A DNA stretch of 64,000 nt, taken from positions 1,302,001-1,366,000 of the forward strand of contig JAMXDE010000004.1 of NCBI GenBank assembly GCA_026770025.1. The letters are read 5' to 3'. The position numbers and the translations under genes are program-made. The notes beneath the pieces were generated by a model that made no database searches, had not been told where the DNA came from, and saw nothing but the letters and a program-made list of their open reading frames with translations. Numbering within the stretch: the stretch's first letter is position 1; each line of letters opens with the position of its first letter. Shown here one piece after another: positions 20,924-60,482 of this stretch. This DNA comes from Craspedostauros australis. Taxonomy: Eukaryota; Bacillariophyta; Bacillariophyceae; Mastogloiales; Achnanthaceae.

Positions 20924-21922
20924 CTAATCCCATTGATTGGGATTGACGCGCACGGTCAGTTCGCCTTCCTTCATACCATACCCGACTATCGCCTTGCATG
21001 CCAAACGTTGACGCGGCACGTCCGCTAGCATCTGCTGTTCTGACAATCGCTGTGGATTCAGCAGATCGCTACCTGACGACACCGACACCACGCAAGTGCG
21101 GCACAATCCGCCAGCTCCACAATTCCCACCATTCGCCGTGTCGAATCGTTTGGCCAAGCGATCATTCAGTTGCACGCCGCGGATCAGCATGCCGTGGCGT
21201 AAATTCTCTCCAGCGTACATCGTGATGGTCTCGTCTGGGATATTTTCGCTGGGTGGGTATTGCAAGTGGACGGTGATCTTGGGGATGCGACGGATTCGTT
21301 TCAGTGTCACTTCGAAGATGTCCGGCGCCGTTGCTTTGCGTGGTAATGCGAGCGGTAGCTTGGATAAGGCCTCCACTGTGCCATCGTAGGAGAGGCACTC
21401 CAAGTTGACCGTCGAGATGTTGGATGCGCGGATCAACGCCACCTGCACAAGCGAATCGCCCGGCAGGATATCGATGTCGCCCGATGCAGCCGCCGAACCA
21501 CCCTCCACGAGACCCTTCACCAACGTGATACCAACTCCGTCGTCACGACCTCCGGCCAATTCGAACAACTCCAACCCGAGACCGCCATTGGGCAATCGAG
21601 GATACGTGACACGCACCACGTCGGCAAACAGCTCGCGATCGTTCTTGGTTCGTAGATAGACGGTGCCGGTTTGCTGCGTGGCCTTTTGAACTCTCGATGC
21701 CGTCCATTCATCCTGAATCTCTTGCAGCGATGGCAAATTGTACTGATTGACATCGACGGCAGGCTGTCCCGTCCCTTGGAGCACCTGCGTGGCAACGTTC
21801 CTAGTGGTGTCACCGAATGGCGTGGACATTGCTTCCACAATGAAACTGCGACTGCCATATCGTGTGCCACGTGGAGTGCCCCAATGGATGGCGCATAGGA
21901 TCAGGAAAGAAAGGGATCTCAT
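20924..21922 (-). CDS. PDZ-like + [2Fe-2S] ferredoxin-domain protein, left paralogue
   Basis: A single exon encodes 332 residues. The N-terminus (MRSLSFLILC) is a short hydrophobic leader and may be a signal or targeting sequence. A PDZ-like region covers about residues 65-190, with GLGLELFELAGG and a DDGVGITLVKGLVEGGSAAASGDI stretch whose GGSAAASG-D-I-L-PGD pattern is typical of PDZ domains. A ferredoxin-type domain follows, with NCGAGGLCRTC (C-x5-C-x2-C) and a fourth Cys in RLACKA, enough ligands for one [2Fe-2S] cluster. It ends NPNQWD. Electron transfer or cluster-dependent sensing in a plastid is a reasonable guess only. It converges on the RING gene, with 163 bases between the stops. 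A paralogue with about four in five residues the same lies at 37618-38715 on the other strand. Confidence 0.85.
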   Translation of the reverse strand: MRSLSFLILCAIHWGTPRGTRYGSRSFIVEAMSTPFGDTTRNVATQVLQGTGQPAVDVNQYNLPSLQEIQDEWTASRVQKATQQTGTVYLRTKNDRELFADVVRVTYPRLPNGGLGLELFELAGGRDDGVGITLVKGLVEGGSAAASGDIDILPGDSLVQVALIRASNISTVNLECLSYDGTVEALSKLPLALPRKATAPDIFEVTLKRIRRIPKITVHLQYPPSENIPDETITMYAGENLRHGMLIRGVQLNDRLAKRFDTANGGNCGAGGLCRTCVVSVSSGSDLLNPQRLSEQQMLADVPRQRLACKAIVGYGMKEGELTVRVNPNQWD

Positions 21923-22501
21923 GTTGTTTTGCTCTGCTCTGCTCTGCTATGCTATGGTAGGTTGCGTTGTGTTGTGGTGTGGTGTGGTGTATTGGGACAG
22001 AATGGAATCGCGGACGCGTCTGTCGGTGCTGTTGTGTTGTTATACTGTTGTGCTGCTGTGATGACAACTGTTGATGCAACTGTCCACACCGAATTTGTGA
22101 ACGAAGTATGCCATACACAGTGCTTGGAAACACAGCCCCATCATGCCTCTGCGCATGAACCCGCTGTCGATACTTCACATCCATCGTATGTCGACGCGGT
22201 TCTTCCCATGCGGTTCTTCAAATCGAAAGATCGCCATGCGGTTCTTCTGCGGAAATTCTCAGGAGGTGTCAGAAATGACATGGCAACGACTTTGCGAAGC
22301 AAGTCGACATCGTCAATGCGAAAGCACCAATGACATGAGGGATGTTGCAGAAAGAATCACAGGATTGTTGAGCATGGATTGGTATCTGCAAGGGCGCTCT
22401 TGTGCTTGTCTTTGCACAAGGCATCTTTGTGGCACCTCTGAGGGTTGAGGGGAGAGGGAGAGGAATCACTCTTCTTCGCGCAGCATGGGGTATCTTTCGT
22501 G
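21923..22501. other. Intergenic between ferredoxin gene and left duplication arm
   Basis: Simple TGCTC and TGTGG repeats lie just upstream of the ferredoxin start (about 21935-22000). A GCGGTTCTTC motif is repeated three times between 22197 and 22252. By eye there is no similarity to the matching position on the right side (37216-37617). No gene is supported. Confidence 0.5.
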
Positions 22502-22965
22502 AAGATCTCACACCCATGATTGACGTCACCATTGAAGTCGATCATCACTCGTGAATCAAACCGACACAACAATTTGAATCTGTCCCACATAACCGTTATT
22601 TCAATTCCCATACAACCAACCACACACAAAGAAGACACGCTAACACAACAGTGCAAATCTCACCACAACAATAACAGAACAACAGACAACACAAGGAGAG
22701 AAACAAGGAAAACCCCAACGCCACAACGTCTCAACGTCACAACATCTCGACATCTCATTGTTCCAGTCTGCATCTTCCATCCTCCTCCATCTCACATCCC
22801 ACATCTCACGCCACCATCGAGCATCGCGCATCGTGGATCGTTGGTTGCACCAATACTGTAGACATCGATAGGAGTAGCAGGCATCGGATACCACCCAGCA
22901 GCCATCAGCCATCAGTCATCAGCCTGCGACCGTCACAGGCAACCTCCTCTGCGACAAACACAAAC

Positions 22966-25900
22966 ATGCCTCCAACTCGGCCACGTGGATCGGCATCCAA
23001 GTCCACGTCGAAGGCTGCAACGAAGTCCACATCATCTTCTGGTGCGGAAGGTCTCCAGCTCTACAAGGGAACCACTCCACAATGGAGAATCGGGAAGATG
23101 CTCGGTGCTGGTGCGTGCGGCACCGTGCATGAGCTTCTGTCACTCAAGCCATCGTCGGCCTTCACCTCCAACGACTTTGCCATCAAGATCGCACCGCTCC
23201 CCACCAAGACCACGAAGAAGCGCAACTCGCCTGCTGAGGTCAACGCATCTCGGCTCTACTACGAGCACAACATGTATCACAATCAGTTCCAGACTCTGCA
23301 GGGCACCTTCGTTCCTCGTTTGCCACCCAGCAAAGGGCCGCAGGCATTCGGTGACATCTCAGGTGAGCTTGTGAGGCAGGCATATTGTTGACTGTGCTGA
23401 AAGTGATGAGTGATGAGTGATAAGTGTGATGGATATGTTCGATCAGTGGCGTCTGCTTCGTTTGCTGACATTGTTGGATCCTCCATCATACCATGATGCC
23501 GTCATGCCATCTCATCATCGTACTAATCTCACTAATCTCACCAAGCCCAATTCTCTCTCATGCCATCCATACATACATACCTTCATCCATCCCTTCATTC
23601 ATCCACATGTTCATCTGCACATACGTATTCGTACAAACGTAGGCTTCCGATTCATGGTGATGGAACGGATGCACAGCCCGCTCGAGATGATTGTCCCGCT
23701 CCTCCTCGAACTTGCCACTCCATCCAACAGTGCCACCACCAAAACCTCAAGGAGCTCAAAGAGCTCAAGGAGCAACAGAAGCTCCAAGAGTGACAGCGGA
23801 GGTTCCCGCGTGGTGCCATTCGGACCAGTTGCTGCACAGCTGATCAAGTCTATACAAGCCATCCACGAGTGCAGACACATCGTCATCGATGTCAAGACCG
23901 ACAACTTCATGTTGGCTCCATCCACTACCTCACCAGCATTCCCAAAGATCAAATCAACCAAGTCTGCAAAGTCTTCGAAATCAACAAAAGCAACCAAATC
24001 AACAAAAGCAACTGCAGCAGCAGCAGCTCTCGCTCAACGCATCCGCATCCTCGATCTCGCCCTCGTCCAACCAAGGGCCACCTTCTCTGCTTCACACAGA
24101 CCGAACGAGACCGCTGATGGAATCAAGGCAGGCACGCCACTCTACGCATCGCTCAACGTCCATCAAGGACAGACACCGAGTCGCAGGGACGATCTGGAAG
24201 CACTCGCGTACATCATCGCAGAGCTCATCATGCAGCTGTCGTCTGGCGGGGACATGTCCCTCACGTTGCCATGGAGCAACGGAAAGTCGGATGAAGACAT
24301 CGGCAACATCAAGGAATCGCATGTGACCAACCCCGATTCTGACTTCTACAAGATGCTTGGACCGGTTGAGGTGGGCGACACGTTCCGCAAGTTCCTTGAT
24401 GAGATCAGAGGGTATTCGTACAAGCAGGAGCCTGACTATGATGGTCTTGTGGAGATGCTCCTCGATCTTGATGTGGTGGTGGTTGATGGTGATGGTAGTA
24501 CTCGTACTAGTGGTGGTGCTATTGGTGGTGCTAATGACGATGGTTTGTCGTCAAAGAAGGCAACACCGAAGCAGCCATCTGCAACAGCGAAGGAATCGAT
24601 GGCATCGATGGCAACAAGAACGACCAGGGCAACCAGGGCAAGCAGAGCAACCAGATCGAGCAAAGCAGTTAGAGCACCGGCAGAAGAGCCAGCCACGGCT
24701 CCAGCCACAGCTCCAGCCACGGCTACAGCCAAGCGAGCAGGTACCAAGAGAAGAGCAACACGAGCCTCGCAAGCGTCAGAAGTAGCAGCAGCTGCAGCTA
24801 CGCCTGCTTCATCCTTGGCGCAGAGTCATGAATCACCGACCAAGAGTCAACGACGTCAACAACCGGTACGTCAATCGAAGAGGCTTCAGCAGAGGCAACA
24901 ACAACAGCATCAGCAACAGCAACATCAGGAGCAACAGCAGGAGCAACAGCAGCAGCAATACATCGATACTATCAACGTCGACGACAGCGATGATGATGAT
25001 GATGATGATGATGAAGATGATGGCAATGATGATGATGATCATGAAGACGATGAAGATCATTCATTTGAAGATGCACAGGAGATCATCAGTGTGGATGACA
25101 ATGCATCCGCCCACGATCATCCGACACCACCATCCCAACAAGATGCGCATGCTGGCCAATACGAAGATGCACAAGAGGACATGTACGAGGACACACAGCA
25201 GTACATCCACATCAATACACAAGATACTCATGATGCTCAGGACGATACCGTGTTCGTGACCTGCGCCGAAGGATCGATGGATCACATGATGGGTCAAACC
25301 ATCGGTGATGCTAGCAACGATGGCAACGACAGCGACGGCGGCGGCGACAGCGATGATGATCAGTACGATGATCCAATGGAATGGGACCCCATCCTCGATG
25401 AAGAGAACGTCAAGCCTGCTGCTGGCAACACCATCGACACTCGGACATCCTCCAAACTCAAGGCCACAACCACAACCGCGGCCAAAGCCACGTCAATGAC
25501 GAAACGCAAACCCAGATCAAGCACAACACGCAACAAGACAAGTACAGGTGTCACCATCACCGTCCATGTAGACCACGGGTACGCATACGATCCCATCCTT
25601 CATCAGCAACACCACCAACAGCAACAGCAGTTTCATCTCATCGAAGGAGTGTCCGACACCATCATCGTTGGATCCAAGCCGACGACACTTACACCTGCAG
25701 CCGCAGCTCCAAGCAATCACACCAGTCATGCCAACCACACATACCACATCGCGCATGGCAGTCATCTCGATGACTCTCATGTGCGGCTGCAGCTCAACAT
25801 CACCAAGAAGCTCATTTCTGTCACTCTCACTGATCTCAGCTCGACGAGTGGCATCTTTGTGGAAAGTCAGAAGATCGGCAAGACTGGCCGTGTGTTCCTG

Positions 25901-26746
25901 AATCAATCGTTTCGCATTGGCAACATGACGTTCAAAGTGAAGCCATTGTCGAAGTCGGTACCGAGACAGTCGTTGAAGTCCGCAGGCAAAGCAGCCAGAT
26001 CAGGTGGACAGGTGGCATCACAGGTGGTATCACAGGTGCCATCAGGGTTATCGTCGCAAGCCCACGGAGATGATATTGATATGGAGATCATCGATGTGGA
26101 TGGTAGCGAAGGTGATCACGATGATTCAAAGGTCAACGCAAAGGGCGACGACAGGAAGAACGACACTTCTGGTGATATGGATGAAGAGGCTTCACCATCG
26201 TCCGTTCCATCAACATCAACATCAGACCGACCGCAGCAGAAACAGGCACAGCGTCAAGGAGTGCAGCTGGAAGTCATCAGCGGTCCACATGAAGGTGAGA
26301 CCTTCACACTCCAGAAGGGTGGCATCATCAGCCTCACCATCGGCTCCAATGCCTCTTTTCTGCCTTCTGCATCTGCTGATGTATCCGTGAAGGATTCCCT
26401 CGTCCAGACGCAGATCTCCACAAGGACCAGCACACGCACCAGAGCGCAACAACAAGCGCAACCACAGGTACCACAGCAAGAGCAGCAGCAACATCAGCAG
26501 CAGCAGCAACAACAACAGCCTTCGGAGGTGAAGGTGAGGCTGCACAAAGATGCGAGTGTTGCGAAGAACCATGTCCGGCTGGAGCTGAATGCCACGAAGC
26601 GCTTGACAACGGTGAAGGTGTTGGATCTGAAGGGAGGATCTACGGTTGTGCGTGATGTGTTGCTTGGGAAGGGCAAGGCCAGCCGCGCGTTCCTGAATGA
26701 CAAGGTGACGATCGGTGAGACGGTGTTGGTGATCCGCAAGCTGTAG
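22966..26746 (+). CDS. CK1/VRK-type protein kinase with two FHA-like domains, left copy
   Basis: Two exons, 22966-23362 and 23643-26746, give about 1,166 residues. The phase-1 intron (23363-23642) runs GTGAGC..GTAG, and retaining it leads to an early stop. The kinase domain has the glycine loop GAGACGTV (residues 47-54) and AIK lysine K74. Its catalytic loop is VIDVKTDNF with D215, K217 and N220. The DFG aspartate is kept, but as DLA (D270). GTPLYASLN and SRRDDLEAL are signatures of the casein kinase 1/VRK group. A long disordered linker has Lys/Thr/Ala repeats, polyGln and Asp/Glu runs. Two FHA-like modules follow: about 778-870 (SHVRLQL, SSTSGIFV) and 1006-1166 (NHVRLELN, DLKGGSTVV). FHA domains bind phosphothreonine, so the protein may scaffold phospho-dependent partners. 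The missing DFG glycine makes catalytic competence uncertain. A near-identical copy is at 33104-36759. Confidence 0.85.
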
Positions 26747-27432
26747 AGCCATCATAGTTTGTGGATGTCACTGCATCACTGCATCACCGTGAGCGGGGTT
26801 TGTGGAAGGTGAGAATGAGATGGAGGAAGCAAATGCGGTAGATGAAGGATGCGAACACCATTACTCCATTCCAAAGTACGTTTACGTACGGACAACACCA
26901 TACAGATCAAGATTTGGAGGAGGAGAACGAATGGCAACAGGCACCATGACGAAGCAGGAGAAGTTCGGAAGGGTGCAAGTTGGGGACGAGGTGGGGTGGC
27001 ATTCGAAGAGTATCGGGACCAACACCAGCAACAGTACAAGCACACGACGATGAGGATACCCCAAAGAAGGATGCTATCGTCCAATCGTATTCTGCTCTCT
27101 AGTTATTTGCTCTCACACAACAGCCGAGTATGAAATCAAATGGTGATGCCGATTCAGCAATGATGAGAGTTGTGTTGTAATGTGGAGCGGCATGGTCGCA
27201 GTACCAAAATGGTGATGAATGTATGTGTGTGGGTGGATGTAGAGCGATGGCGCAGAATAGTACGAGCTATTGTACAACCTACGAAAGTATAATATGTACA
27301 TACAGTATGCATGGCATACATAGTGCACCCAAATGTGTTGGCGAGATCGTGAAGCTGATCGAGTTGGCGAGCAAAAGGTTAGGTTCCAACAGAGCTGCGG
27401 GTGTTGTGGATGTGTAGCGGAACAAAAGGACA
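26747..27432. other. Duplicated intergenic region inside left arm
   Basis: No gene is supported between the kinase stop and the tRNA. The whole stretch has an inverted near-identical counterpart at 32395-33103. Small differences include a longer ACACATACATACATAC run on the right. Confidence 0.55.
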
Positions 27433-27506
27433 AGCTTCATCGCGGATTCGAACCACGGACCTCCTCATTACTAATGAGGTGCTCTAACCAACTGAGCTAA
27501 TGGAGC
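27433..27506 (-). tRNA. tRNA-Thr (AGT), left copy
   Basis: The 74-nt sequence folds as a tRNA. The D arm is GCTC/GAGC. The anticodon stem CCTCA/TGAGG encloses loop TTAGTAA, so the anticodon is AGT. The T arm CGTGG/CCGCG encloses TTCGAAT. The A box (TAGCTCAGTTGG) and B box (GGTTCGAATCC) both match the RNA polymerase III consensus. There is no intron. A TTTT run follows within 10 bases. The acceptor stem has one C4-A69 mismatch. The copy at 32321-32394 is identical. Confidence 0.93.
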
Positions 27507-27900
27507 TGTTGCCGCAATTACTGTTGCTGCCATCCTAGGCCAATCCACTGTACAAATACTATAATACAAGCATGTACTCATGTGTCGCATCATTTTGGTC
27601 TCATCTCACCAGTCGATCCGCTTCCTGTCCTTCCGACTGTTCACCTTTTCATAACCGTGTAGATCGTACTCATACAACACAACCTTCTGAATCTTCTGTG
27701 TTGCGTGTGATCCTTCTCAGTTATGCTTCTGCTCTAATGTGTATTTATGTTCCGGAATGTGTTCCGGAATGTACTGTACATAGAAATGTGTTGTTCCTCC
27801 AGCCCAAACAACTGCTCGCTACCGCCTCCAGAAAGTCCATCGTATCACTGCTGATGCGATCCATTCAGCATGACGCGTCTCGGTGCCTTGCGATGATGAC
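27507..27900. other. Intergenic between tRNA and Patched-like gene
   Basis: No gene is supported. It includes a directly repeated GTTCCGGAAT near 27750-27768 and the 3' UTR of the minus-strand Patched-like gene. The right arm has the counterpart at 31927-32320. Confidence 0.5.
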
Positions 27901-30752
27901 TCATGTGCTGTCTTGTTCGCCACGACTGGTCGTACCGGAATTGATCTCAGGTCCGCAGATGGAAAGGACAACAGGAAGCAAGACGAGGCCATGGCCGATT
28001 CCAATGGTCACGAGTCCGATGAAGGCAATGAAGATGGTCGAAAAGATCGTGCTCGTGGAGAAGGCGAGTGGGATGACGCCAAGGAATGTGGAAAGACCAC
28101 CGAGGAATACGGACGATCCCATGGTTCGAAGCAGCTCGACGACCCTGGTTCTACGATCTCCGGGGATTTCGTAGTATCGCAGAAGGATATGGATGAGGAA
28201 GTCGACCAGCAGACCGATGGACATGACCAACGAAACGTAGCTGACGGTATTGATGTGGACGCCGGCCAATTGAAGGAAGCCAAGCAGATCGACGTAGAGG
28301 ATGGTAATGAACGGAGCCACGAAGAATGTGGCAGTCCAATGCGGAATAAAGATCATACTCAGCACAGTGACAGAGACGACACCCAGGATGGTAGTCAGAA
28401 TCAGCTCTTGCACCGCGACTGCGTAGAATTCCCAGATGGAGTACAGCGATGCGTAGGTGAAGAAATTCCAATATTTCTGGCCTCTGTTGGTTGGCTGTAT
28501 CCTGCTCGTCTCTCGCTGGTTGAGCAACGCATCAATCAAGTCCTCGACATCGTCGTTATCGAGGTTGTCCATGTAGATGCTGACGCGGGATGCAGTGATC
28601 TTGTTGTTTTCATCCACGACAATGTCGTTGCGGTACTGCGTCTGGCTAGCCTCTTCCGCGAAGAAGGCATCGAACTGGTCCTGGAATGACTTATCCTGGA
28701 TGCTGGAGGTTTCGTTGACGTACGCTTCGAAGTCCTTGATCCAGAAGAATGGCGGCTCATATGAAATTTCATGCATGGCCACAAGATCGTCAACGTACGT
28801 CTTCATCTCCTCTCTGACATCTTCGGAGGTTTGATCGACGTTACGGAAGTACGCTTCGATGACGTATCCACCACGAGTGGTGAAATCATCGTACGAATCC
28901 CAGTATGGCTTAATGTACTGTGAGTGAAGAAGGAATAGTAGCGGACCGGATGGTAGAGGAGGGTAAACAGGGGAGGAGAATGTGCAGATACGCAGCGGTT
29001 AGATGAGGACGATTGAGCATGGTACAGCTGTCACTCGAATACGGGCACTCGTGCGATGAGAGAATCGTGTCCGATACCACTTACCGAATCCGACGGAACG
29101 ACATCAGTGAATTCGAACTCTTGAGTTAGAAGGGAGGCGCTGTAGCTGCATGCGCATGCGATTGCAAGGAACACGACCACCACGACTACCTTGACAGCGG
29201 GTTGCAGCAGAAAGTTTGCATACGACACCATCATGCGGTCGATGATGGATTCTTCGGGCTCAATCGGCAGCTGGGTTTCTCCCTTCGCGACGTTGTCATT
29301 CTCGTCATCATCACGAGCGTTTTGATCCTCCTCATCTTTCGGAACAGCGATGCACACGCAGCAATCGCGCCGATTGTCCTGGATACGGCGCTCATCGATG
29401 GCCATGAGAGCGATATAGAATGTCATTTGGTAGAAGAAGTCGATGAGGATGGTGGGGAACGCGTACATGCACAACCAGTAGACAGAGGGAATGGTGGAGA
29501 TGCATCCCATGGCGAAGGCAACAGATGAAGTGGTCGTGGTCAGCGCGATGCTGACTCCAACATCTCGGACGGTGTCTTCGATGCGTTGTTCGACGGACCG
29601 ATTTGGATCTGTGCGTTGGAAGGATCCGGACAGGATGTACGCTGCGTCCATTCCGATGCCGAACATGATGAAGGGAAGAATCTGCGTCATGGAGGTGAAC
29701 GGGACACCGATCAGAAAGAGCAGACCGTATCCAGTCATGATGCTGAGGAAGACGGAGACGACAGCACCAAAGCCCAGGGTTGTCCGTGACTTGACTCTGT
29801 CCTTCTTGAAGAAGACCATGCAGGTGAAGATGCTCATGACGGTGAAGACCATCGGCACGAGCGGGATGTCAGCCATGATGGCACGTCCGAATTCATCGGA
29901 GAAGGAACGTTGAGAGAAGACCTCCACCTTGTACGGATTGCTCTTGTCGGCATTCCATGCGTCCTGCAGATCGAAGACATTCTCCAAGGCACTGGATTCA
30001 AACTCTTCAGCTTCGGGAGTTTCCGGCAAATCAAAATGGATGAGGAAGATCCTGGACGAGACGAGAATCTCGTTTTCGTCGTAGGTGTTGGTCCCCAGCA
30101 CGCTTTCGGTGTCCACGCCAGTCCCGTCCGGATACTTTTTAGCGGACATGGCGATGAGGACCTCTTCGTCGGTAGGACCTGCGGCTTCGAACACGGCCGT
30201 CGAATGATTCCAGAAGTTGGTGATGGCTTTGAGCTGGCAGGTGCTTCTTTGGGTACCGTCTGCGAGCATCTCAGTGGCGCCGCCCTCCAGGCAAATCTGT
30301 TCGTAATCGGGCGTGTTGCGAACGGTATCGACTGCTTCGAAGACGCGCTTGACGCCATCCGCAGCGAGGACGTTGTCGCCGTCGATGTGAACGGTCATGA
30401 GGAAGAAGCGCGGATCCAACGGAAAACCTGATGACTCGTCGATCCAGTCCTTGTGCTGCCGCGAGCGGCTCTTGCTGGGCGAGTACAGAATGTCCTCGTC
30501 CACCTCGACGTAGAAGTTGGTGAACAGGCCGAGCACGACCATGGACAGCGCGAAGCAGATGGTCAAGGAGACCGTGGTCTTTGGGAACTTGACGGCCGTC
30601 CCAGAGAGTTTCAGCAGAACGTTAGTGATGGGCTCGTGGATGAAGCGGAGGATGGCCCTGGACCATTGGGCACCGATGCTGGTGTCGTCGTCGTCATAGT
30701 AAGCATTTCCATGGCGCGATGGCGCTGACGATGTTTCCTTTCTTTCGCTCAT
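27901..30752 (-). CDS. Patched/NPC1-like RND-family membrane protein
   Basis: Two exons, 30752-29085 and 28917-27901, give about 894 residues. The 167-nt intron (28918-29084) is in phase 0, with donor GTAAGT and acceptor CTCACAG. The first half has one N-terminal membrane span (about 60-82), a large lumenal loop starting DEDILYSPSKS, and a sterol-sensing-like bundle with GIGMDAAYIL near residue 345. The second half repeats the plan, with a lumenal loop and a membrane bundle containing SIGLLVDFLIH. This gives about 12 spans, as in Patched/NPC1/Dispatched proteins, which move sterols or other lipids. The substrate here is unknown. The last 59 codons lie inside the left arm of the inverted duplication, and their copy at 31750 is a stub. 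This gene is therefore the intact original. The start ATG at 30752 leads straight into a polar N-terminus. Confidence 0.88.
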
Positions 30753-31749
30753 GAGTGCGTGCGTTCAGATGGCTAGAAATATGTGCGTGGCTTGGCTTGG
30801 TGACTTGGTGGCTTGATTGAATGGCTTGGGGGTGAAGTTTGAAGGAATCTGTGTTCTTGATGATGGGAAACGGTGAAATGTCTGATGGTTGATGTTCAAA
30901 ATTATGAGTTGATTCAAGTTCTCCTCGGCTCGAGATGGTTCTTGTTCCTCCACGACAGACCTGCCAAGAACAACCAGCTTATCAACCGGGACACAGTGGA
31001 ATGTGGAAGATTGCGGCCATCAAAAATGACTTCTTCGCGGTTTGGTTCAGCTGGTGTGTGTTCGTCACGTGGGTACTGGCCATTTTGGTTTCTCCACGTT
31101 TGATCTCTTGGTCAAGAGTTACCGCGTCGTCATTCGGAGAAAAAACTGAAGAACGTCTGTGATGTCAGCTGGTGCGACATTGACCGGTGAATTAGCAGCA
31201 CTTGGGGTCTTCAAAAGCCTTTTGCATTTCATTGACCACGACACAAGCGCCCATTTGAAGAAAACAAATCGGACACTCTTCACGGAAACCCGAATCTTGA
31301 GTCCTGCGTCACGTTTCGGTCTGTCCACTGAACGCAGAAACGGGCGATTTACAGACATGATACTCCACAAACACAGTTCTGTCCTGCTCTGCTGTCGAAC
31401 ACTGTGCTGATCAGTTTGACTTGTGTCCGTATGTCGTCGGGCCAAGTCGGCGATCGCAAGGTTCCCCGCATCCGGCTCCTGTGGATGGCATCGTGTATGG
31501 GCAGTTGTGTCTGGAACGATGGGTTCTTCAGTTCGAGTAGTTCTGGATAATGCATGGAGTAGATGGAGTTCAGGGTGACGACAGATAAAGTGGTGTTGGC
31601 ATTGATAGACCGCACCTTCTGCTCCTCTTTACGACGGGCAACGGGGAGCCGTGGCATGCAGCGCTGCGTTCACCCCAGCCACAAAAGGTGGTGGAGGAGA
31701 CATATGACTCACGATTTCATGCATAGGGTTGAAATGTTTTGATTTCGCT
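30753..31749. other. Spacer between Patched-like gene and right duplication arm
   Basis: This unique sequence of about 1 kb upstream of the Patched-like gene should contain its promoter. It ends at the sharp inner edge of the right arm. The only coding-like hint is a minus-strand frame at 31349-31657, listed separately. Confidence 0.5.
31349..31657 (-). pseudogene. Possible ankyrin-repeat-like gene fragment
   Basis: This short minus-strand frame contains LNSIYSMHYPELLELKN followed by TQLPIHDAI, which recalls the YPEAL..LPLHDA pattern of diatom ankyrin-repeat proteins. A stop lies just upstream and the frame is only about 102 codons. If real, it is a remnant or one exon of a gene cut by the duplication junction about 90 bases away. 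Support is weak and rests on one repeat-like stretch. Confidence 0.22.
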
Positions 31750-31926
31750 GTCATCCCACTCGCCTTCTCCACGAGCACGATCTTTTCGACCATCTTTATT
31801 GCCTTCATCGGACTCGTGACGATTGGAATCGGCCATGGCCTCGTCTTGCTTCCTGTTGTCCTTTCCATCTGCGGACCTGAGATCAATTCCGGCACGACCA
31901 GTCGTGGTGAACAAGACAGCACATGA
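31750..31926 (+). pseudogene. Truncated 3' stub of the Patched-like gene
   Basis: These 177 bases repeat the last ~58 codons and the stop of the Patched-like gene at 27901-30752. They begin at VIPLAFSTS and end with the same C-terminus (RGEQDST). Nothing of the rest of the gene is present upstream, so it cannot make the transporter. It was carried along when the neighbouring arm was duplicated. Confidence 0.9.
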
Positions 31927-32320
31927 GTCATCATCGCAAGGCACCGAGACGCGCCATGCCGAATGGATCGCATCAGCGGTGATACGATGGACTTTCTGGA
32001 GGCGTTATCGAACAGTTCTTTGGGCTGGAGGAACAACACATTTCTATGTACGGTACATTCCGGAACACATTCCGGAACATAAATACACATTAGAGCAGAA
32101 GCATAAATGAGCAGGATCACACGCAACACAGAAGATTCAGACGGTTGTGTTGTATGAGTACGATCTACACGGTCATGAAAAGGTGAACAGCGGGAAGGAC
32201 AGGAAGCAGATCGACTGGTGAGATGAGACCAAAATGGTTCAACATATGAGGAACTGTTTGCATTAGCTAGTTTGTACAATAGATTGGCCAAGATCGGCAG
32301 CAACAGCAATGATGGCAACA
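31927..32320. other. Duplicated intergenic region inside right arm
   Basis: This is the counterpart of 27507-27900. No gene is supported. Compared with the left copy there are scattered substitutions and a few larger local differences around 32230-32300, near the tRNA. Confidence 0.5.
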
Positions 32321-32394
32321 GCTCCATTAGCTCAGTTGGTTAGAGCACCTCATTAGTAATGAGGAGGTCCGTGGTTCGAATCCGCGATGAAGCT
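32321..32394 (+). tRNA. tRNA-Thr (AGT), right copy
   Basis: The sequence and fold are the same as the copy at 27433-27506, including the C4-A69 mismatch and anticodon loop TTAGTAA. The downstream terminator is TTTTT here, against TTTT on the left. An identical pair inside inverted arms fits a single duplication event. Confidence 0.93.
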
Positions 32395-33103
32395 TGTCTT
32401 TTTGTTTCGCTACACATCCACAACACCTACGACTCTGTTGGAACCAAACCTTTTGCTCACCAACTCGATCAGCTTCACAACGTCACCAACACATTTGGGT
32501 GCACTATGTATGCCACGCATACTACTGTATGTACATATTATACTTTCGTGGGTTGTACATAGCTCGTACTATGCTGCGCCATCGCTCTACATCTACCTAC
32601 ACACATACACACATACATACATTCATCACCATTTTGGTACTGCGACCATTCCGCTCCACATTCCAACACAACTCTCATCATTGCTGGATCGGCACCACCA
32701 TTTGATTTCATACTCGGCTGTTGTGTGAGAGCAAATAACTAGAGAGCAGAATACGATTGGACGATAGCATCCTTCTTTGGGGTATCCTCATCGTCGTGTG
32801 CTTGTACTGTTGCTGGTGTTGGTCCCGATACTCTTCGAATGCCACCCCACCTCGTCCCCAACTTGCACCCTTCCGAACTTCTCCTGCTTCGTCATGGTGC
32901 CTGGTGCCATTCGTTCTCCTCCTCCAAATCTCGATCTGTATGGTGTTGTCCGTACGTAAACGTACTTTTGGAATGGAGTAGTGGTGTTCGCGCCCTTCTC
33001 CGCATCATCTGCCTCCTCCATCTCATTCTCACCTTCCACAAACCCCGCTCACGGTCATGCACTGGTACAGTGATACAGTGACACCCACAAAACTATGATG
33101 GCT
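32395..33103. other. Duplicated intergenic region between tRNA and right kinase
   Basis: This is the inverted counterpart of 26747-27432. It holds a CACATACA-type microsatellite near 32600-32625. No gene is supported. Confidence 0.5.
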
Positions 33104-36100
33104 CTACAGCTTGCGAATCACCAACACCGTGTCACCGATCGTCACCTTGTCATTCAGGAACGCGCGGCTGGCCTTGCCCTCCCCAAGCAACACATTACGC
33201 ACAACCGTAGATCCTCCCTTTAGATCCAAAACCTTCACCGTTGTCAAGCGCTTCGTGGCATTCAGCTCCAGCCGGACATGGTTCTTCGCAACGCTCGCAT
33301 CTTTGTGCAGCCTCACCTTCACCTCCGAAGGCTGCTGTTGCTGTTGTTGCTGCTGCTCTTGCTGTGGTACCTGCGGTTGCGCTTGTTGTTGTGCTCTGGT
33401 TCGTGTGCTGGTCCTTGTGCAGATCTGCGTCTGGACGAGGGAATCCTTCACGGATCCATCAGCAGATGCAGAAGGCAGAAAAGAAGCATTGGAGCCGATG
33501 GTGAGGCTGATGATGCCACCCTTCTGGAGTGTGAAGGTCTCACCTTCGTGTGGACCGCTGATGACGTCCAGCTGCACTCCTTGACGCTGTGCCTGTTTCT
33601 GCTGCGGTCGGTCTGATGTTGATGGAACGGACGCTGGTGAAGCCTCTTCATCCATATCACCAGAAGTGTCGTTCTTCCTGTCGTCGCCCTTTGCGTTGAC
33701 CTTTGAATCATCGTGATCACCTTCGCTACCATCCACATCGATGATCTCCATATCAATATCATCTCCGTGGGCTTGCGACGATGGCCCTGACGGCACCTGT
33801 GATACCACCTGTGATGCCACCTGTCCACCTGATCTGTGTGCTTTGCCTGTGGACTTCAACGACTGTCTCGGTATCGACTTCGACAATGGCTTCACCTTGA
33901 ACGTCGTGCTGCCAATGCGGAACGATTGATTCAGGAACACACGGCCAGTCTTGCCGATCTTCTGACTTTCCACAAAGATGCCACTCGTCGAGCTGAGATC
34001 AGTGAGAGTGACAGAAATGAGCTTCTTGGTGATGTTGAGCTGCAGCCGCACATGAGAGTCATCGAGATGACTGCCATGCGCGATGTGGTATGTGTGGTTG
34101 GCATGACTGGTGTGATTGTTTGGAGCTGCGGCTGCAGGTGTAAGTGTCGTCGGCTTGGATCCAACGATGATGGTGTCGGACACTCCTTCGATGAGATGAA
34201 ACTGCTGTTGCTGTTGGTGGTGTTGCTGATGAAGGATGGGATCGTATGCGTACCCGTGGTCTACATGGACGGTGATGGTGACACCTGTACTTGTCTTGTT
34301 GCGTGTTGTGCTTGATCTGGGTTTGCGTTTCGTCATTGACGTGGCTTTGGCCGCGGTTGTGGTTGTGGCCTTGAGTTTGGAAGATGTCCGAGTGTCGATG
34401 GTGTTGCCAGCAGCAGGCTTGACGTTCTCTTCATCGAGGATGGGGTCCCATTCCATTGGATCATCGTACTGATCATCATCGCTGTCGCCGCCGTCGTTGT
34501 CATAATTGTCATCGTTGCTAGCATCACCGATGGTTTGACCCATCATGTGATCCATCGATCCTTCGGCGCAGGTCACGAACACGGTATCGTCCTGAGCATC
34601 ATGAGTATCTTGTGTATTGATGTGGATGTACTGCTGTGTCTCCTCGTCTATGTCCTCTTGTGCATCTTCGTATTGGTCAGCATGCGCATCTTGTTGGGAT
34701 GGTGGTGTCGGATGATCGTGGGCGGATGCATCGTCATCCACACCGATGACCTCCTGTGCATCTTCAAATGAATGCTCTTCATCGTCTTCATGATCATGAT
34801 CATCATCATCATCATCATCGCTGTCGTCGATGTTGATAGTATCGATGTATTGCTGATGCTGCTGTTGTTGCCTCTGCTGAAGCCTCTTCGATTGACGTAC
34901 CGGTTGTTGACGTCGTTGACTCTTGGTCGGTGATCCATCACGCTGCGCCAAGGATGAAGCAGGCGTAGCTGCAGCTGCTGCTACTTCTGACGCTTGCGAG
35001 GCTCGTGTTGCTCTTCTCTTGGTACCTGCTCGCTTGGCTGTAGCCGTGGCTGAAGCTGTGGCTGACTCTTCTGCCGGTGCTCTAACTGCTTTGCTCGATC
35101 TGGTTGCTCTGCTTGCCCTGGTTGCCCTGGTCGTTCTTGTTGCCATCGATTCCTTCGCTGTTGCAGATGGCTGCTTCGGCGTTGCCTTCTTTGACGACAA
35201 ACCATCGTCATTGGCACCACCAATAGCACCACCACTAGTACGAGTACTACCACCATCATCAACCACCACCACATCAAGATCGAGGAGCATCTCCACAAGG
35301 CCATCATAGTCAGGCTCCTGCTTGTACGAATACCCTCTGATCTCATCAAGGAACTTGCGGAACGTGTCGCCCACCTCAACCGGTCCAAGCATCTTGTAGA
35401 AGTCAGAATCGGGGTTGGTCACATGCGATTCCTTGATGTTGCCGATGTCTTCATCCGACTTTCCGTTGCTCCATGGCAACGTGAGGGACATGTCCCCACC
35501 AGACGACAGCTGCATGATGAGCTCTGCGATGATGTACGCGAGTGCTTCCAGATCGTCCCTGCGACTCGGTGTCTGTCCTTGATGGACGTTGAGCGATGCG
35601 TAGAGTGGCGTGCCTGCCTTGATTCCGTCAGCGGTCTCGTTCGGTCTGTGCGAAGCAGAGAAGGTGGCCCTTGGTTGGACGAGGGCGAGATCGAGGATGC
35701 GGATGCGTTGAGCGAGAGCTGCTGCTGCAGTTGCTTTTGTTGATTTGGTTGCTTTTGTTGATTTCGAAGACTTTGCAGACTTGGTTGATTTGATCTTTGG
35801 GAATGCTGGCGAGGTGGTGGATGGAGCCAACATGAAGTTGTCGGTCTTGACATCGATGACGATGTGTCTGCACTCGTGGATGGCTTGTATAGACTTGATC
35901 AGCTGTGCAGCAACTGGTCCGAATGGCACCACGCGGGAACCTCCGCTGTCACTCTTGGAGCTTCTGTTGCTCCTTGGGCTCTTTGAGCTCCTTGAGGTTC
36001 TGGTGGTGGCACTGTTGGATGGAGTGGCAAGCTCGAGGAGGAGCGGGACAATCATCTCGAGCGGGCTGTGCATCCGTTCCATCACCATGAATCGGAAGCC

Positions 36101-36759
36101 TACGTTTGTACGAATACGTATGTGCAGATGAACATGTGGATGAATGTATGGATGGATGTATGGATGGCATGAGAGAGAATTGGGATTGGTGAGATTCGTG
36201 AGATTGGTGCGATGATGAGATGGCATGACGGCATCATGGTATGATGGAGGATCCAACAATGTCAGCAAACGAAGCAGACGCCGCTGATCGAACATTTCCA
36301 TCACACTCATCACACTCATCACTTTCAGCACATTCAACAATATGCCTGCCTTACGTGCTCACCTGAGATGTTACCGAATGCCTGTGGCCCCTTGCTGGGT
36401 GGCAAACGAGGAACGAAGGTGCCCTGCAGAGTCTGGAACTGATTGTGATACATGTTGTGCTCGTAGTAGAGCCGAGATGCGTTGACCTCAGCAGGCGAGT
36501 TGCGCTTCTTGGTGGTCTTGGTGGGGAGCGGTGCGATCTTGATGGCAAAGTCGTTTGAGGTGAAGGCCGACGATGGCTTGAGTGACAGAAGCTCATGCAC
36601 GGTGCCGCACGCACCAGCACCGAGCATCTTCCCGATTCTCCATTGTGGAGTGGTTCCCTTGTAGAGCTGGAGACCTTCCGCACCAGAAGATGGTGTGGAC
36701 TTCGTTGCAGCCTTCGACGTGGACTTGGATGCCGATCCACGTGGCCGAGTTGGAGGCAT
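33104..36759 (-). CDS. CK1/VRK-type protein kinase with two FHA-like domains, right copy
   Basis: Two exons, 36759-36363 and 36099-33104, give about 1,130 residues. The phase-1 intron (36100-36362, GTGAGC..GTAG) matches the left copy. Exon 1 has the same length as on the left (397 bases). The kinase landmarks are conserved: GAGACGTV, AIK, VIDVKTDN, DLA, SRRDDLEAL, and both FHA-like modules are complete. Relative to the left copy it lacks 36 residues in total, all in simple-sequence tracts of the linker: polyGln, Ala/Thr/Pro, Asp/Glu, and a Gln run before the second FHA. It also has scattered substitutions. Both copies have open frames, so both may be expressed. They point towards each other, tail to tail, around the Patched-like gene. 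Confidence 0.85.
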
Positions 36760-37215
36760 GTTTGTGTTTGTCGCAGAGGAGGTTGCCTGTGACGGTCGCA
36801 GGCTGATGACTGATGGCTGATGGCTGCTGGGTGGTATCCGATGCCTGCTACTCCTATCGATGTCTACAGTATTGGTGCAACCAACGATCCACGATGCGCG
36901 ATGCTCGATGGTGGCGTGAGATGTGGGATGTGAGATGGAGGAGGATGGAAGATGAAGACTGGAACAATGAGATGTCGAGATGTTGAGATGTTGGGACGTT
37001 GTGGCGTTGGGCTTTCCTTGTTTCTCTCTTGTGTTGTCTGTTGTTCTGTTGTGGTGAGATTTGCGCTGTTGCGTTAGCGCGTCTCCTTTGTGTGTGGTTG
37101 GTTGTATGGGAATTGAAATAACGGTTATGTGGGACAGATTCAAATTGTTGTGTCGGTTTGATTCACGAGCGATGATCGACTTCAATGGTGACGTCAATCG
37201 TGAGTGTGAGATCTT

Positions 37216-37617: not shown

Positions 37618-38715
37618 ATGCGATCCTTTTGCGTACTTTTCCTGTGCGCCACCCAGTGGGGCGCTCCACGCAACAGCAATAATGGCAGCAGAAGCAGCAG
37701 CTTGGTTGCGGAAGCAATGTCGACACCGTTCGGTCAAACGACAAAGAACGTTGCGACGCAAGTGCTTCAAGGTGCTGGACAGGCCACGGTCGATCTGAAC
37801 CAGTACAATCTGCCATCCATAGAAGACATTCAGAACGAATGGACGGCATCGGTGGTGCAAAAGGCCACGGAACAAGAAGGCAAGATCTATCTGCAAGCCA
37901 AGAACGATCGCGAGCTGTTCGCCGATGTTGTGAGGGTCGTGTTCCCGCGATTGCCGACCGGTGGTCTCGGATTGGAGCTGTTCGAATTGGCCGGTGGTCG
38001 CGACGATGGGGTCGGCATCACCTTGGTGAACGGCTTGGTCGACGGCGGTTCGGCGGCAGCGGCAGGCGATATCGATATAGTGCCGGGCGATTCGCTGGTG
38101 CAGGTGGCGTTGATCCGCATGTCCGCCGCGCAGCAGGCTGCGGCTTTGGCACCGCCATCCGACGAAGATGATGAAGCAGAAGCGCAGACGGCGAACGGAA
38201 TGCTCGCTGAGAGCGCCGACGTGACGACGGTGAATCTGGAGTGCCTGTCGTACGATGCCACCGTCGAAGCATTATCTGAGCTCCCACCGCCACTCAAGGC
38301 ATCCAGCCCTATGACGGAGCTATTCGAAGTGACGTTGAAACGAATCCGCCGCAAGCCCAAGGTGACCGTTAATCTGCAATACCCACCCAGCGAGAAAATC
38401 CCTGACGAAACCATCACAATGTACGCAGGCGAGAATCTGCGACAGGGTATGCTAATCCGTGGCGTAAAGCTCAACGATCCATTGGCGAAGCGATTCGATA
38501 CGAAGAATGGCGGAAACTGCGGAGCTGGTGGACTGTGTCGCACGTGCGCGGTCTCTGTGTCATCCGGAAGCGATCTGTTGAATCCGCAACGTCTAGCGGA
38601 GCAGCAGATGTTGGCAGATACGCCGCGCTGGCGCTTGGCATGCAAATCGATCGTCGGCTTTGGCATGAAGGAGGGCGAGATGACGGTGCGTGTCAGCCCC
38701 AATCAGTGGGATTAG
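37618..38715 (+). CDS. PDZ-like + [2Fe-2S] ferredoxin-domain protein, right paralogue
   Basis: A single exon encodes 365 residues. It is collinear with the left paralogue: hydrophobic leader (FCVLFLC), MSTPFGQTT, PDZ-like GLGLELFELAGG..GGSAAAAGDID..PGD, then the cluster motif NCGAGGLCRTC with a fourth Cys in RLACKS, ending SPNQWD. It differs by an insertion of about 30 residues rich in Ala, Asp and Glu (near residues 165-197) between the PDZ-like and ferredoxin regions, which accounts for its greater length. All four cluster cysteines are present in both. Retention of function in both suggests sub-specialisation rather than decay. Confidence 0.85.
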   Translation: MRSFCVLFLCATQWGAPRNSNNGSRSSSLVAEAMSTPFGQTTKNVATQVLQGAGQATVDLNQYNLPSIEDIQNEWTASVVQKATEQEGKIYLQAKNDRELFADVVRVVFPRLPTGGLGLELFELAGGRDDGVGITLVNGLVDGGSAAAAGDIDIVPGDSLVQVALIRMSAAQQAAALAPPSDEDDEAEAQTANGMLAESADVTTVNLECLSYDATVEALSELPPPLKASSPMTELFEVTLKRIRRKPKVTVNLQYPPSEKIPDETITMYAGENLRQGMLIRGVKLNDPLAKRFDTKNGGNCGAGGLCRTCAVSVSSGSDLLNPQRLAEQQMLADTPRWRLACKSIVGFGMKEGEMTVRVSPNQWD

Positions 38716-52821: not shown

Positions 52822-55800
52822 TTACCAGCCCATGATTTTGGATCGTAGGTATTCGAAGACTGCGATGGACAATCCTTTGGTGAAGATGTCTGCAAGCTGC
52901 TCCGGAGTGGCGATGTGCTGGATGCAAATGAAACCTGCCTTGACCCAGTACCAAAAGAAATGCCACTTGGTCAGAAAATGCTTGGTGCGCGCGGTCGGCT
53001 GGTGATTGGTGGCTAGAGAAATGCAAGCTTGGTTGTCCTCGAAGACAGTGCACTGGAGGTTGGTGTGCAGCGGCATGTCGGTGCCGGCGTTATTGATCAC
53101 TTGGCGAATGAGCTGTTGGATGGGAATCAATGTTCGCATTGCCAGGGAGAGAGCGGCGTATTCGGACTCCATTGTGGATAACGCGATCTCAGTTTGGAGT
53201 TTCGACTTCCAAATGAGAGGGCATCCACCCAATGTGATGAGATATCCCGTGCGTGATTTCACCGACACTGGATCTTTGCTGTCCTCACGTTGGTAGAGGC
53301 CTGCGAAGTCAGCGTCCACGTAGCACTTGAGATCGAGTTGCCCTGTAGGGCGAACGATGGTGCCCATGGTTTCAGTGTGCTTGAGATAGCGCATGATGCG
53401 CTTGATCGCTTTGGCATGTGATCGGCGGGGATCGTGTCCGAAGCGAGCGACTTGGGAGACTGCGAAGGCGAGATCGGGACGAGTGTTCGTCGTGAGGTAG
53501 AGCAACATTCCGACAACAGAGCGGTAGTTCCATTTCTCGTTCATGGCTGGTTCATCCTTGCACTGTCCGAGTGCGAGTTGGGTAGTAGGTACCGGACATG
53601 GATTACAGTTCGACATCTTCGTTGTCTCCAGGATCTTTTTGATCAATCCTGGCTGTCGGAGATGAACTACATCCGCTTTTGGATCGCGGCAGAGTTCGAT
53701 CCCCAGGAACTCGGTGAAGCTGCCTTCCTGAGTGAGCTCGAACCCAAGTTCACGCATTGATGCAATGAATTCGTCGGCATCCTTCTTGGTCTTGGAGGCA
53801 ATTCCTGCATCGTCAACGTAGAGAACGATCATGATGTTGCGCTTGATGAACAAGCATTGCTCTTGGTCGCAGGCTGTGAAGCCAACTGTGATTAGAGCTC
53901 GTATGAGGTGCTCGTACCACAGGCGCGGGGCGATCGTCAATCCGTAGAGACTTTTGCAAAGTCGGAGACAGGTGTTGGGTCCCTTGCTTGACTTGAAGCC
54001 GCGAGGAAGGTGAAGATGAACAGGCTTGTGGATGGAGGCCTGCACGAAGGCGTTGGTGAAGTCGATTGACGTGGTTGTCCAACCCATCACGATGGATGTG
54101 CTCAGGAAGATGCGAACCGATGACCAGGCCACGACTGGTGCGTAGGTGGATTCATCCTCATTCATGAGGTCTCCGCGGCAACACCAGCGACCCTTGTACT
54201 TCTTGATAGTACCATCTGGTAAGCGCTTGCGACGGAAGACCCAGGTCCCTGGGAAGATTCGATCATTGACGACGTCGGCCTTTTGAATTTCTTCCCATGT
54301 TCCCTTTTCGGTAAGTGCCTTGATTTCCTTTTCGGCTGCCTGCATCCACTCGTCCTTGTTGTCGTCGCGAATTGCTTCGTCGAAGGAAAGGGTATCAGGG
54401 TCATTGCTGGATGCCTTGTACGTGGATGAGCGTTCGGCGATATCCAAATCGCCACCTGTTGCGAAGTAGCTCATCATGTGTCCATCAACGTAAGTTGGGA
54501 AGTTTGTCGAGTCTCGTTGTGGTTCGATGATCGAGACAGCGTAGGCATGCTGTTCGATGTTAGCCCACTCGTGTTCTGGAATGCATGTTGCCGTGTCCAG
54601 GATGGACGATGGGTCAACTTCAAGTGTCGATCCGATTTTCTCGGAGACGCGCGTTGCTGGAGCCACCTTGAGAGGTGCCGTGTTGGTCTCGATCATCCCT
54701 TGGACAAACTTCTCGACTTCGAATGCACTTGGCTGTGGCCATGGCCCTGGACGAATCGTCTTTACTTGACGACGGAGTAGTTCGAATGCGAGACGATAGC
54801 GATGATTCTCAGAGATGGCGTTCCACACGGAGCGAGTCCTTTTGAAGAATGTGTTTCCACTGATTCTGGATTCGGGAGGAAGAAAACCCTTCATCATCAA
54901 GTATTCCGGATCCTGATACGACCATGGCTCTGGTTTGGCCGATGACATGTAGTCAAAAGCATCGAAGCTGGGGTTCATGATGCCGGTTCGTATGAAAGCG
55001 CTCAGTCTGTTAACGAATTGGCCGACGGCGTAGTCAGTCGCTTGTCTCCTGAGGTCGTCGCAACGAATCTCGCAGTGAAGGTCGACTTCGAAGTGTCTCT
55101 CCATGTCCGCGTAGAAGTCCTCGTAGACGTCTTGGAATGGCGTTGGTCCTTCTTCGACCATGTCGTCTGGATCCGGCTGCCACCAATCGGCCATGTTGAT
55201 GCTTGCTTCTTCTGCTTTAGCCGGCTTTGGGGTGAACGTTGGAAGGACGATGTTGGTTGGTTGTGGATTCAACGTATTGAATCGACCTCGAAGTCTGCGC
55301 AACAAGTAGTGAGCGTCCACCTTGAATTGATGTAGGTCGATAGAGAGAGAGTCGCTGCCTTCGCGTTGGAGAGGTTCAATTGTATGTAGGCAATCGACAA
55401 TAGCTTGTGAGAATGTTATGATCGACGACGAGTCGGGGTGCAATTCCCTGGGTGTCATGGCCTGGTCAATCTCTTCCAAGGTAGCTACTGCGGGGCAGAA
55501 GTAGTAATCGTCGGTGTCCTCGTCGTCCAACCAGGCTGCTTTGCCTCCCAAACGCGCGTACGTGAATCGCTTTGGTTGTTTGCGACTTCTCGTGCTTCGA
55601 GGTCTTGATGGCGTTGACTCGGGCTTCGGCGTGGTAGTTGTCGTGGACTTAGTATCAACTGAAGTTGGAGCTAAAGGTGGTAATGGAGTTGCCTGTCCTG
55701 AAATTGGCGACTCTCGGAGAGGTGAACTCAATTGCGGTTGAAGTGTTCGCTGATCCGGTGACTCTATAGTAGAGTCAGGTACCGGGGACTCATAGGGAGC

Positions 55801-60066: not shown

Positions 60067-60482
60067 GATGGATAGCAGGGACTTCTCGAGTAGTCTTCGG
60101 ACGTCGAGGGGATCGATCTGTTTACCTTCTCTTGCTCTTGCTCGACTTCACTTCGTTGAGAAGGTGTGCACTGAAGTTCGATGCAGGTTTTGAGAGGCTC
60201 GTACTCGGTCAGCGAGTATGGTTATAGCTTGCTTTAGCAGAGGCTACTGAAGTTCGACCTTGGGTCGCTTACCTTCAGCTGGGACTTTTGTCCTCTTGAG
60301 TGGCTCGGTTTTCGAGCGTTGGGAGTCTGATTTCAAATCAGATGCATGCGATGAGGACTGTGTCCTTTGTTGAAAGCTCGGTCTGCGAGCTGTGCCTTTT
60401 GGCTTGGTCTCAGAGAGACTCTTGCGATCGGTTGGCAGAGGAAGATGCTCGGTGGGGTTGATTTGAGAGTATTTGGCAACCA
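60067..60482 (-). other. Copia leader between PBS and gag start
   Basis: This ~415-base leader contains a stop-free stretch of about 79 codons (60483 down to 60244) in the same frame as gag. It is basic and polar in composition and has no ATG start. TAG and a later TGA separate it from the gag ATG at 60066. ACTGAAGTTCG occurs twice (near 60170 and 60247). It may hold the packaging signal. Confidence 0.45.

Follow-up and report, generated by a model that had tools for sequence, protein, structure and literature searches.

Two ages within one mirror-symmetric locus around a Patched-like gene of Craspedostauros australis

Background

When the two arms of an inverted duplication are nearly identical, has the structure arisen recently, or has an old duplication been made alike again by copying between its arms? 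This question is raised by a locus of Craspedostauros australis in which two inverted arms, each with a kinase gene and a tRNA-Thr gene, flank a spacer holding most of a Patched-like gene. The locus lies in a stretch of 64,000 nt (contig JAMXDE010000004.1, positions 1,302,001-1,366,000), which is referred to below as the window and belongs to the contig labelled C2 in our analysis. Inverted duplications with a near-identical core are a known kind of structure, and where conversion resets part of a duplication the ages of the duplicates are misread. In this work we describe the symmetry of the locus, the two ages it contains, the edge between them, an orphan gene end and the selection on the kinase pair. 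A mirror structure that contains two ages requires two events, and we consider it probable, with real room for doubt, that an old inverted duplication had its inner 5.5 kb re-homogenised later by gene conversion from arm to arm. All genome searches were made in one assembly of 74.8 Mb in 90 contigs (C2, C3, C4 etc.).

Organization of the inverted core

The sequence-only reading of the window had placed two inverted arms around a spacer of about 3.67 kb, and the limits and lengths of the arms, as well as their orientation, were recovered to the base:

22502-28077, left arm of the near-identical inverted core, 5,576 bp
28078-31749, spacer between the arms, 3,672 bp
31750-37215, right arm of the near-identical inverted core, 5,466 bp

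BLASTN aligned the inverted arms in pieces with 94.5% identity over 3,098 columns and 96.0% over 2,415 columns (E = 0), which excludes chance similarity. The global alignment of the two arms contained 179 mismatches in 5,441 aligned columns and a further 160 gap columns, giving an identity of approximately 96.7%. From the outer edge inwards the differences amounted to 12/456 in the upstream intergenic DNA, 6/397 in kinase exon 1, 13/263 in the intron, 69/2,996 in exon 2, 36/683 in the intergenic DNA between kinase and tRNA, 0/76 in the tRNA, 39/390 beyond the tRNA and 4/180 in the 3′ end of the Patched gene. Coding and noncoding DNA are alike in both arms around the spacer, as expected of an inverted repeat homogenised by gene conversion, and the alignment confirmed the earlier statement that exons, introns, intergenic DNA and the tRNA all have their counterparts.

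Ferredoxin pair and the age of the outer symmetry

The symmetry had been taken to end at 22502 and 37215. Our comparison moved its outer limits to 20924 and 38715, where BLAST pieces show 76-80% identity and a pair of genes stands in mirror orientation directly outside both arms:

20924-21922, minus strand, left ferredoxin-domain (Fer2) gene, start codon predicted, 579 bp from the arm edge
37618-38715, plus strand, right ferredoxin-domain (Fer2) gene, start codon predicted, 402 bp from the arm edge

Neither Fer2 gene has a closer relative in the genome than the other: the two share 78.6% amino acid identity over 332 codons, versus 47-49% with the next relative (on C6). Their synonymous divergence, Ks = 1.16 (Nei-Gojobori with the Jukes-Cantor correction; a high and hence approximate value), is about 26 times that of the kinase pair (Ks = 0.044). 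Fourfold-degenerate sites differ at 72 of 139 positions in the Fer2 pair and at 18 of 562 in the kinase pair, and Fisher's test on the rounded synonymous counts gave p of about 6e-76. A single recent duplication, which should show one age across the symmetric region and unrelated flanks, is ruled out by these values. The sequence-only reading had proposed either a recent segmental duplication or a palindrome kept alike by conversion; as a single recent event the former does not hold, and later homogenisation or a nested second duplication is required.

The transition between the two zones is abrupt. Identity in 200-bp bins is 94.9-99.5% across 22500-24499. In the three bins next to the arm (21900-22499) it is 48-57%, a level that a forced alignment of unrelated-looking DNA yields; it drops from 0.953 to 0.478 between neighbouring bins and collapses at 22502/37215. 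Downstream of the Fer2 genes a test for residual homology gave a marginal value (p = 0.0498, 300 shuffles), and beyond the pair no further inverted similarity was found at E 1e-10.

Patched-like gene and its orphan 3′ end

The Patched-like gene extends beyond the spacer and is cut by the inner edge of the arms; its last 58 codons and stop codon belong to the left arm, and the right arm carries a copy of them:

27901-30764, minus strand, Patched-like gene in two frames (29031-30764 with sterol-sensing and Patched domains; 27901-28998 without Pfam match)
27901-28077, minus strand, true Patched 3′ end inside the left arm, 58 codons plus stop
31750-31926, plus strand, right-arm orphan copy of the Patched 3′ end, with the same translation and the stop codon kept

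The two frames probably form one gene, since paralogues on C7 and C4 (71% and 65% amino acid identity, respectively; 70-77% identity in the DNA search) match both of them at the DNA level. The orphan end in the right arm has no gene attached, and when the right part of the spacer was searched by tblastn with the last Patched frame, only chance-level matches appeared (best E 0.37). Because the 3′ end on the left is joined to a whole gene, the left side looks original and the left arm is the likely source of the first duplication. The orphan differs from the true end at four positions, all of them synonymous. The chance of such a synonymous excess is 0.005 if all four changes arose in the orphan; two of the four could be polarised with the C7 and C4 paralogues, and both are derived in the orphan (chance 0.07). 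We regard the purely synonymous change in the orphan as weak evidence. As each arm carries this 3′ end, the Patched-like gene should stay whole if the spacer were inverted through the arms.

Kinase genes of the two arms

The arm gene consists of two predicted exons, with splice sites picked by eye and common to both arms:

22966-23362, plus strand, left kinase exon 1 (predicted)
23643-26746, plus strand, left kinase exon 2 with FHA match, following a predicted intron at 23363-23642
36363-36759, minus strand, right kinase exon 1 (predicted)
33104-36099, minus strand, right kinase exon 2 with FHA match, following a predicted intron at 36100-36362

In both arms the frames are open through the two exons and the splice sites match, which agrees with the earlier description of two open kinase genes. 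The N-terminal part of the product resembles kinases of the casein-kinase-1 (CK1) type in a phmmer search of PDB chains (best E 1.7e-9, query residues 264-408 only), and on this match we assign the arm gene to a putative CK1-superfamily kinase; the Pfam Pkinase profile scored 16.6 bits, under its cut-off of 31.7. The FHA domain scored 23.5 and 23.4 bits in the two copies of exon 2 against a cut-off of 20.7.

The kinase pair has Ka = 0.017 and Ka/Ks = 0.38 by the method used for the Fer2 genes, and synonymous change exceeds nonsynonymous change with p of about 8e-5 (fractional counts). The seven coding indels, all of them gaps in the right copy, have lengths divisible by three without exception, versus 4 of the 12 noncoding indels of the arms. 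As judged from these substitutions and indels, the pair has been constrained by selection since the copying. Both copies appear to be working genes, since both are open, their coding indels come in threes and synonymous changes are in excess. No further close paralogue of exon 2 was found in the genome: among the best 42 of 1,490 candidates, the copy-number searches scoring best candidates only, the four matches were the two arm copies and two weak ones (E 3.5e-4 and 5.1e-4), which we read as low-complexity sequence.

Distribution of differences along the core

The tRNA genes of the two arms are identical at all 76 positions and stand beside the most divergent part of the arms:

27432-27507, minus strand, left tRNA-Thr(AGT), also called as tRNA by Rfam
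32320-32395, plus strand, right tRNA-Thr(AGT), also called as tRNA by Rfam
27514-27600, divergent pocket beside the tRNA (versus roughly 32230-32315 in the right arm), 100-site noncoding bin with 24 differences

This pocket is the 5′ flank of the tRNA, and its bin tops the 17 noncoding bins of the core. The flanks of tRNA genes diverge fast (our literature search did not turn up a source for this). With the tRNA neighbourhood included, neutral differences cluster strongly (0/20,000 and 0/10,000 permutations as extreme; change-point test 0/5,000), and most of this signal sits beside the tRNA gene. After removal of the tRNA with 100 bp on each side, clustering as strong was reached in 10/10,000 (W=50) and 739/10,000 (W=100) permutations, and with 130 bp removed in 30/10,000 and 482/10,000. 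The noncoding divergence of the core outside the tRNA ±100 bp is 4.0%, and the best break in the core, separating 44/1,402 outer from 52/982 inner neutral differences, is not significant. Within the kinase, synonymous differences are concentrated in the last complete bin of 100 codons (11 of 32; 41/10,000 simulations), an effect that is weaker with bins of 50 codons (544/10,000). Patchiness was therefore dropped as a proof of conversion, since its signal lies mostly beside the tRNA and is weaker, to a degree that varies with the settings, once that flank is excluded. A core that is evenly young apart from two hot spots is compatible with one long conversion and equally with one duplication, and the pattern of divergence does not decide between them.

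Origin of the near-identical core

In the explanation that we favour, the locus would go back to an old inverted duplication that spanned some 7.1 kb or more and comprised the ferredoxin-domain gene, the kinase, the tRNA-Thr and the 3′ end of the Patched gene. The outer Fer2 genes would then have diverged freely to a Ks of about 1.2, and the inner 5.5 kb may later have been copied from one arm to the other. Such copying, by non-crossover gene conversion within the chromosome, may have taken a single long event or a series of them; it would account for the neutral divergence of about 4% and for the sharp edge that separates the kinase from the ferredoxin gene. We infer that a single duplication lies behind both zones, and that the core owes its youth to conversion and not to a second duplication. 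This reading explains the complete mirror order with one rearrangement, and the flanking partners are far older than the kinase pair by Ks, but the first duplication of the core itself has no independent date. The orphan Patched end, which has kept its translation and stop codon with no gene attached, and the constraint on the kinase pair also count in its favour.

A less probable, though still serious, alternative dispenses with conversion: an old inverted duplication of the ferredoxin gene would have enclosed kinase, tRNA and Patched gene, and a young inverted 5.5-kb copy of the kinase, the tRNA and the Patched 3′ end would have come to lie in the interval that separates the right ferredoxin gene from the Patched gene. 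The neutral divergence of the core, nearly uniform outside the tRNA flank (noncoding 4.0%, kinase Ks 0.044), is what such a copy should show, and abrupt edges together with a truncated Patched 3′ end are expected of one copying event. This nested duplication must, however, land by chance in a gap of about 1.4 kb from the Patched frame to the start of the right ferredoxin gene (1,388 bp with the arm subtracted) and also take the orientation that completes the mirror, for which our rough guess is a few per cent; some excess clustering also remains at two of the settings given above (W=50 without the tRNA ±100 bp, and 100-codon bins), with weaker values at the others (739 and 544 per 10,000).

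Several observations weigh against conversion as the source of the young core. There is no clear mosaic of conversion tracts, the patchiness coming mainly from the tRNA flank and the 3′ end of the kinase; in the change-point test 876/5,000 simulations were as extreme with the tRNA ±100 bp left out and 1,177/5,000 with ±130 bp, and the longest run of codons without synonymous change was ordinary (3,125/10,000). No remnant of old homology was detected between arm and ferredoxin gene by local alignment against 300 shuffles (p = 0.21), nor past the inner edge in two tests with 300 shuffles each (p = 0.23 and 0.42), and at Ks > 1 none need survive outside the edges. The Ka/Ks of the kinase is an average of the pair and is compatible with constraint on one copy, and all comparisons are confined to one genome. 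In a collection of viral contigs, searches with the ferredoxin and the kinase exon 2 proteins found no related loci.

That the arms are two haplotypes joined head to head in the assembly, a possibility that the sequence-only reading had wished to see excluded, is very improbable. A difference of about 3% between the arms could be allelic. For the arms to be the two haplotypes of a single locus, the same would have to hold for the flanks. A piece of the left flank (1,901 bp) and one of the right flank (2,301 bp) each matched the assembly once, and the spacer piece 28200-31740 (3,541 bp) has one full-length match besides the Patched paralogues on C7 and C4. A mis-joined palindrome should also run into its flanks at the identity of the arms; here the flanks hold the Fer2 pair with its Ks of 1.16 and differ from each other farther out, and the right arm holds an orphan Patched end. 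Sharp edges would likewise suit a core carried by a mobile element, which we judge even less likely: two arm queries (601 and 1,541 bp) found only these two copies, besides the tRNA by itself on C3 and the paralogues of the Patched gene (C7 and C4), and none of the three scanned arm frames had a mobile-element match.

Relation to known systems

A review on Caenorhabditis paralogues ascribes near-identical modules with diverged flanks to conversion, including the inverted hsp-16 genes and the tandem col-12/col-13 genes of C. elegans, and warns that a limited recent duplication can give the same picture (PMC3966223). Our locus resembles the hsp-16 modules in its near-identical modules beside diverged flanks. 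The hsp-16 and col-12/col-13 cases differ in that the flank here holds recognisable diverged partner genes, which date the outer symmetry as older. This goes one step past the Caenorhabditis cases, and the warning about limited recent duplication still applies. The mirror-image arrangement is shared with the palindromic pairs Hsp70Aa/Ab and Amy of Drosophila, for which concerted evolution is described (PMC3924832); conversion in those pairs is backed there by comparison between species and by shared polymorphism or substitutions, whereas our data come from one genome only. For palindrome P6 of the human Y chromosome, also with inverted arms, conversion tracts are reported with a mean minimum of 2,068 bp and lengths of up to 9,023 bp, which could cover a 5.5-kb core (PMC3723533). 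Unlike the Y palindromes of that account, with arm similarity above 99.9% on the male-specific Y, the arms studied here are about 96.7% identical.

Membership of the locus in the class of structures maintained by conversion is plausible, not proven. More tentatively, we can imagine a nuclear palindrome of a diatom-like alga kept alike by recurrent conversion while its flanks reached Ks > 1, in which an orphan gene end may have been kept synonymous without selection of its own, conversion tying it to the intact gene. Judged by its core alone the locus would pass as a young duplication, at a synonymous divergence some 26 times lower than that of its flanks, and the orphan Patched end together with the ferredoxin pair makes it a compact place for testing conversion against nested duplication. 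In the library that we searched no paper joined diatoms, gene conversion and inverted duplication, and among the papers listed none seemed, from its title and first lines, to describe such a locus.

To gauge the frequency of large inverted repeats, we used 180 kb of control DNA in nine stretches, which were picked for their paralogues or tRNAs rather than at random. No inverted match between two places exceeded 117 bp there, the longest one being on C4. The control filter hides self-palindromes, and C5, C32, C12, C10 and C40 were covered for two-place inverted matches only; a self-palindrome of 156 bp was seen on C6.

Other features of the genome and of the window

Genes for tRNAs of the same isoacceptor also form inverted pairs, spaced 1.4-10 kb apart, on C3, C4, C5, C12 and C32, with similarity that reaches no more than a few bases beyond the tRNA (76-117 bp); the pair on C10 is direct and that on C40 is unlike. 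Together with the Thr pair and two wider ones, for which equal score was the sole basis of matching, 7 pairs are inverted and 2 direct (p = 0.09), a tally of the best 63 of 1,610 candidates counted by eye after looking. All 13 listed tRNA matches on C83 have a partner of equal score on C89; the offset is 36,512 for 10 of them and -29,745 for the other 3 (worked by hand). Such a pattern would be given by a circle of about 66 kb, probably an organelle genome, that is present as two circularly permuted copies.

The size of the genome and its predicted introns mark it as eukaryotic, and we read it as that of a diatom or close heterokont. Elsewhere in the window a gene with a DUF6824 domain is present, a domain typical of diatoms. 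The segment 52051-61181 is a young LTR retrotransposon of the Copia type, bounded by direct repeats of 687 bp that are 100% identical; its open frame (52822-60147, minus strand, 2,441 amino acids) has gag_pre-integrase and RVT_2 matches, and a target-site duplication of 5 bp was seen by eye in the flanks.

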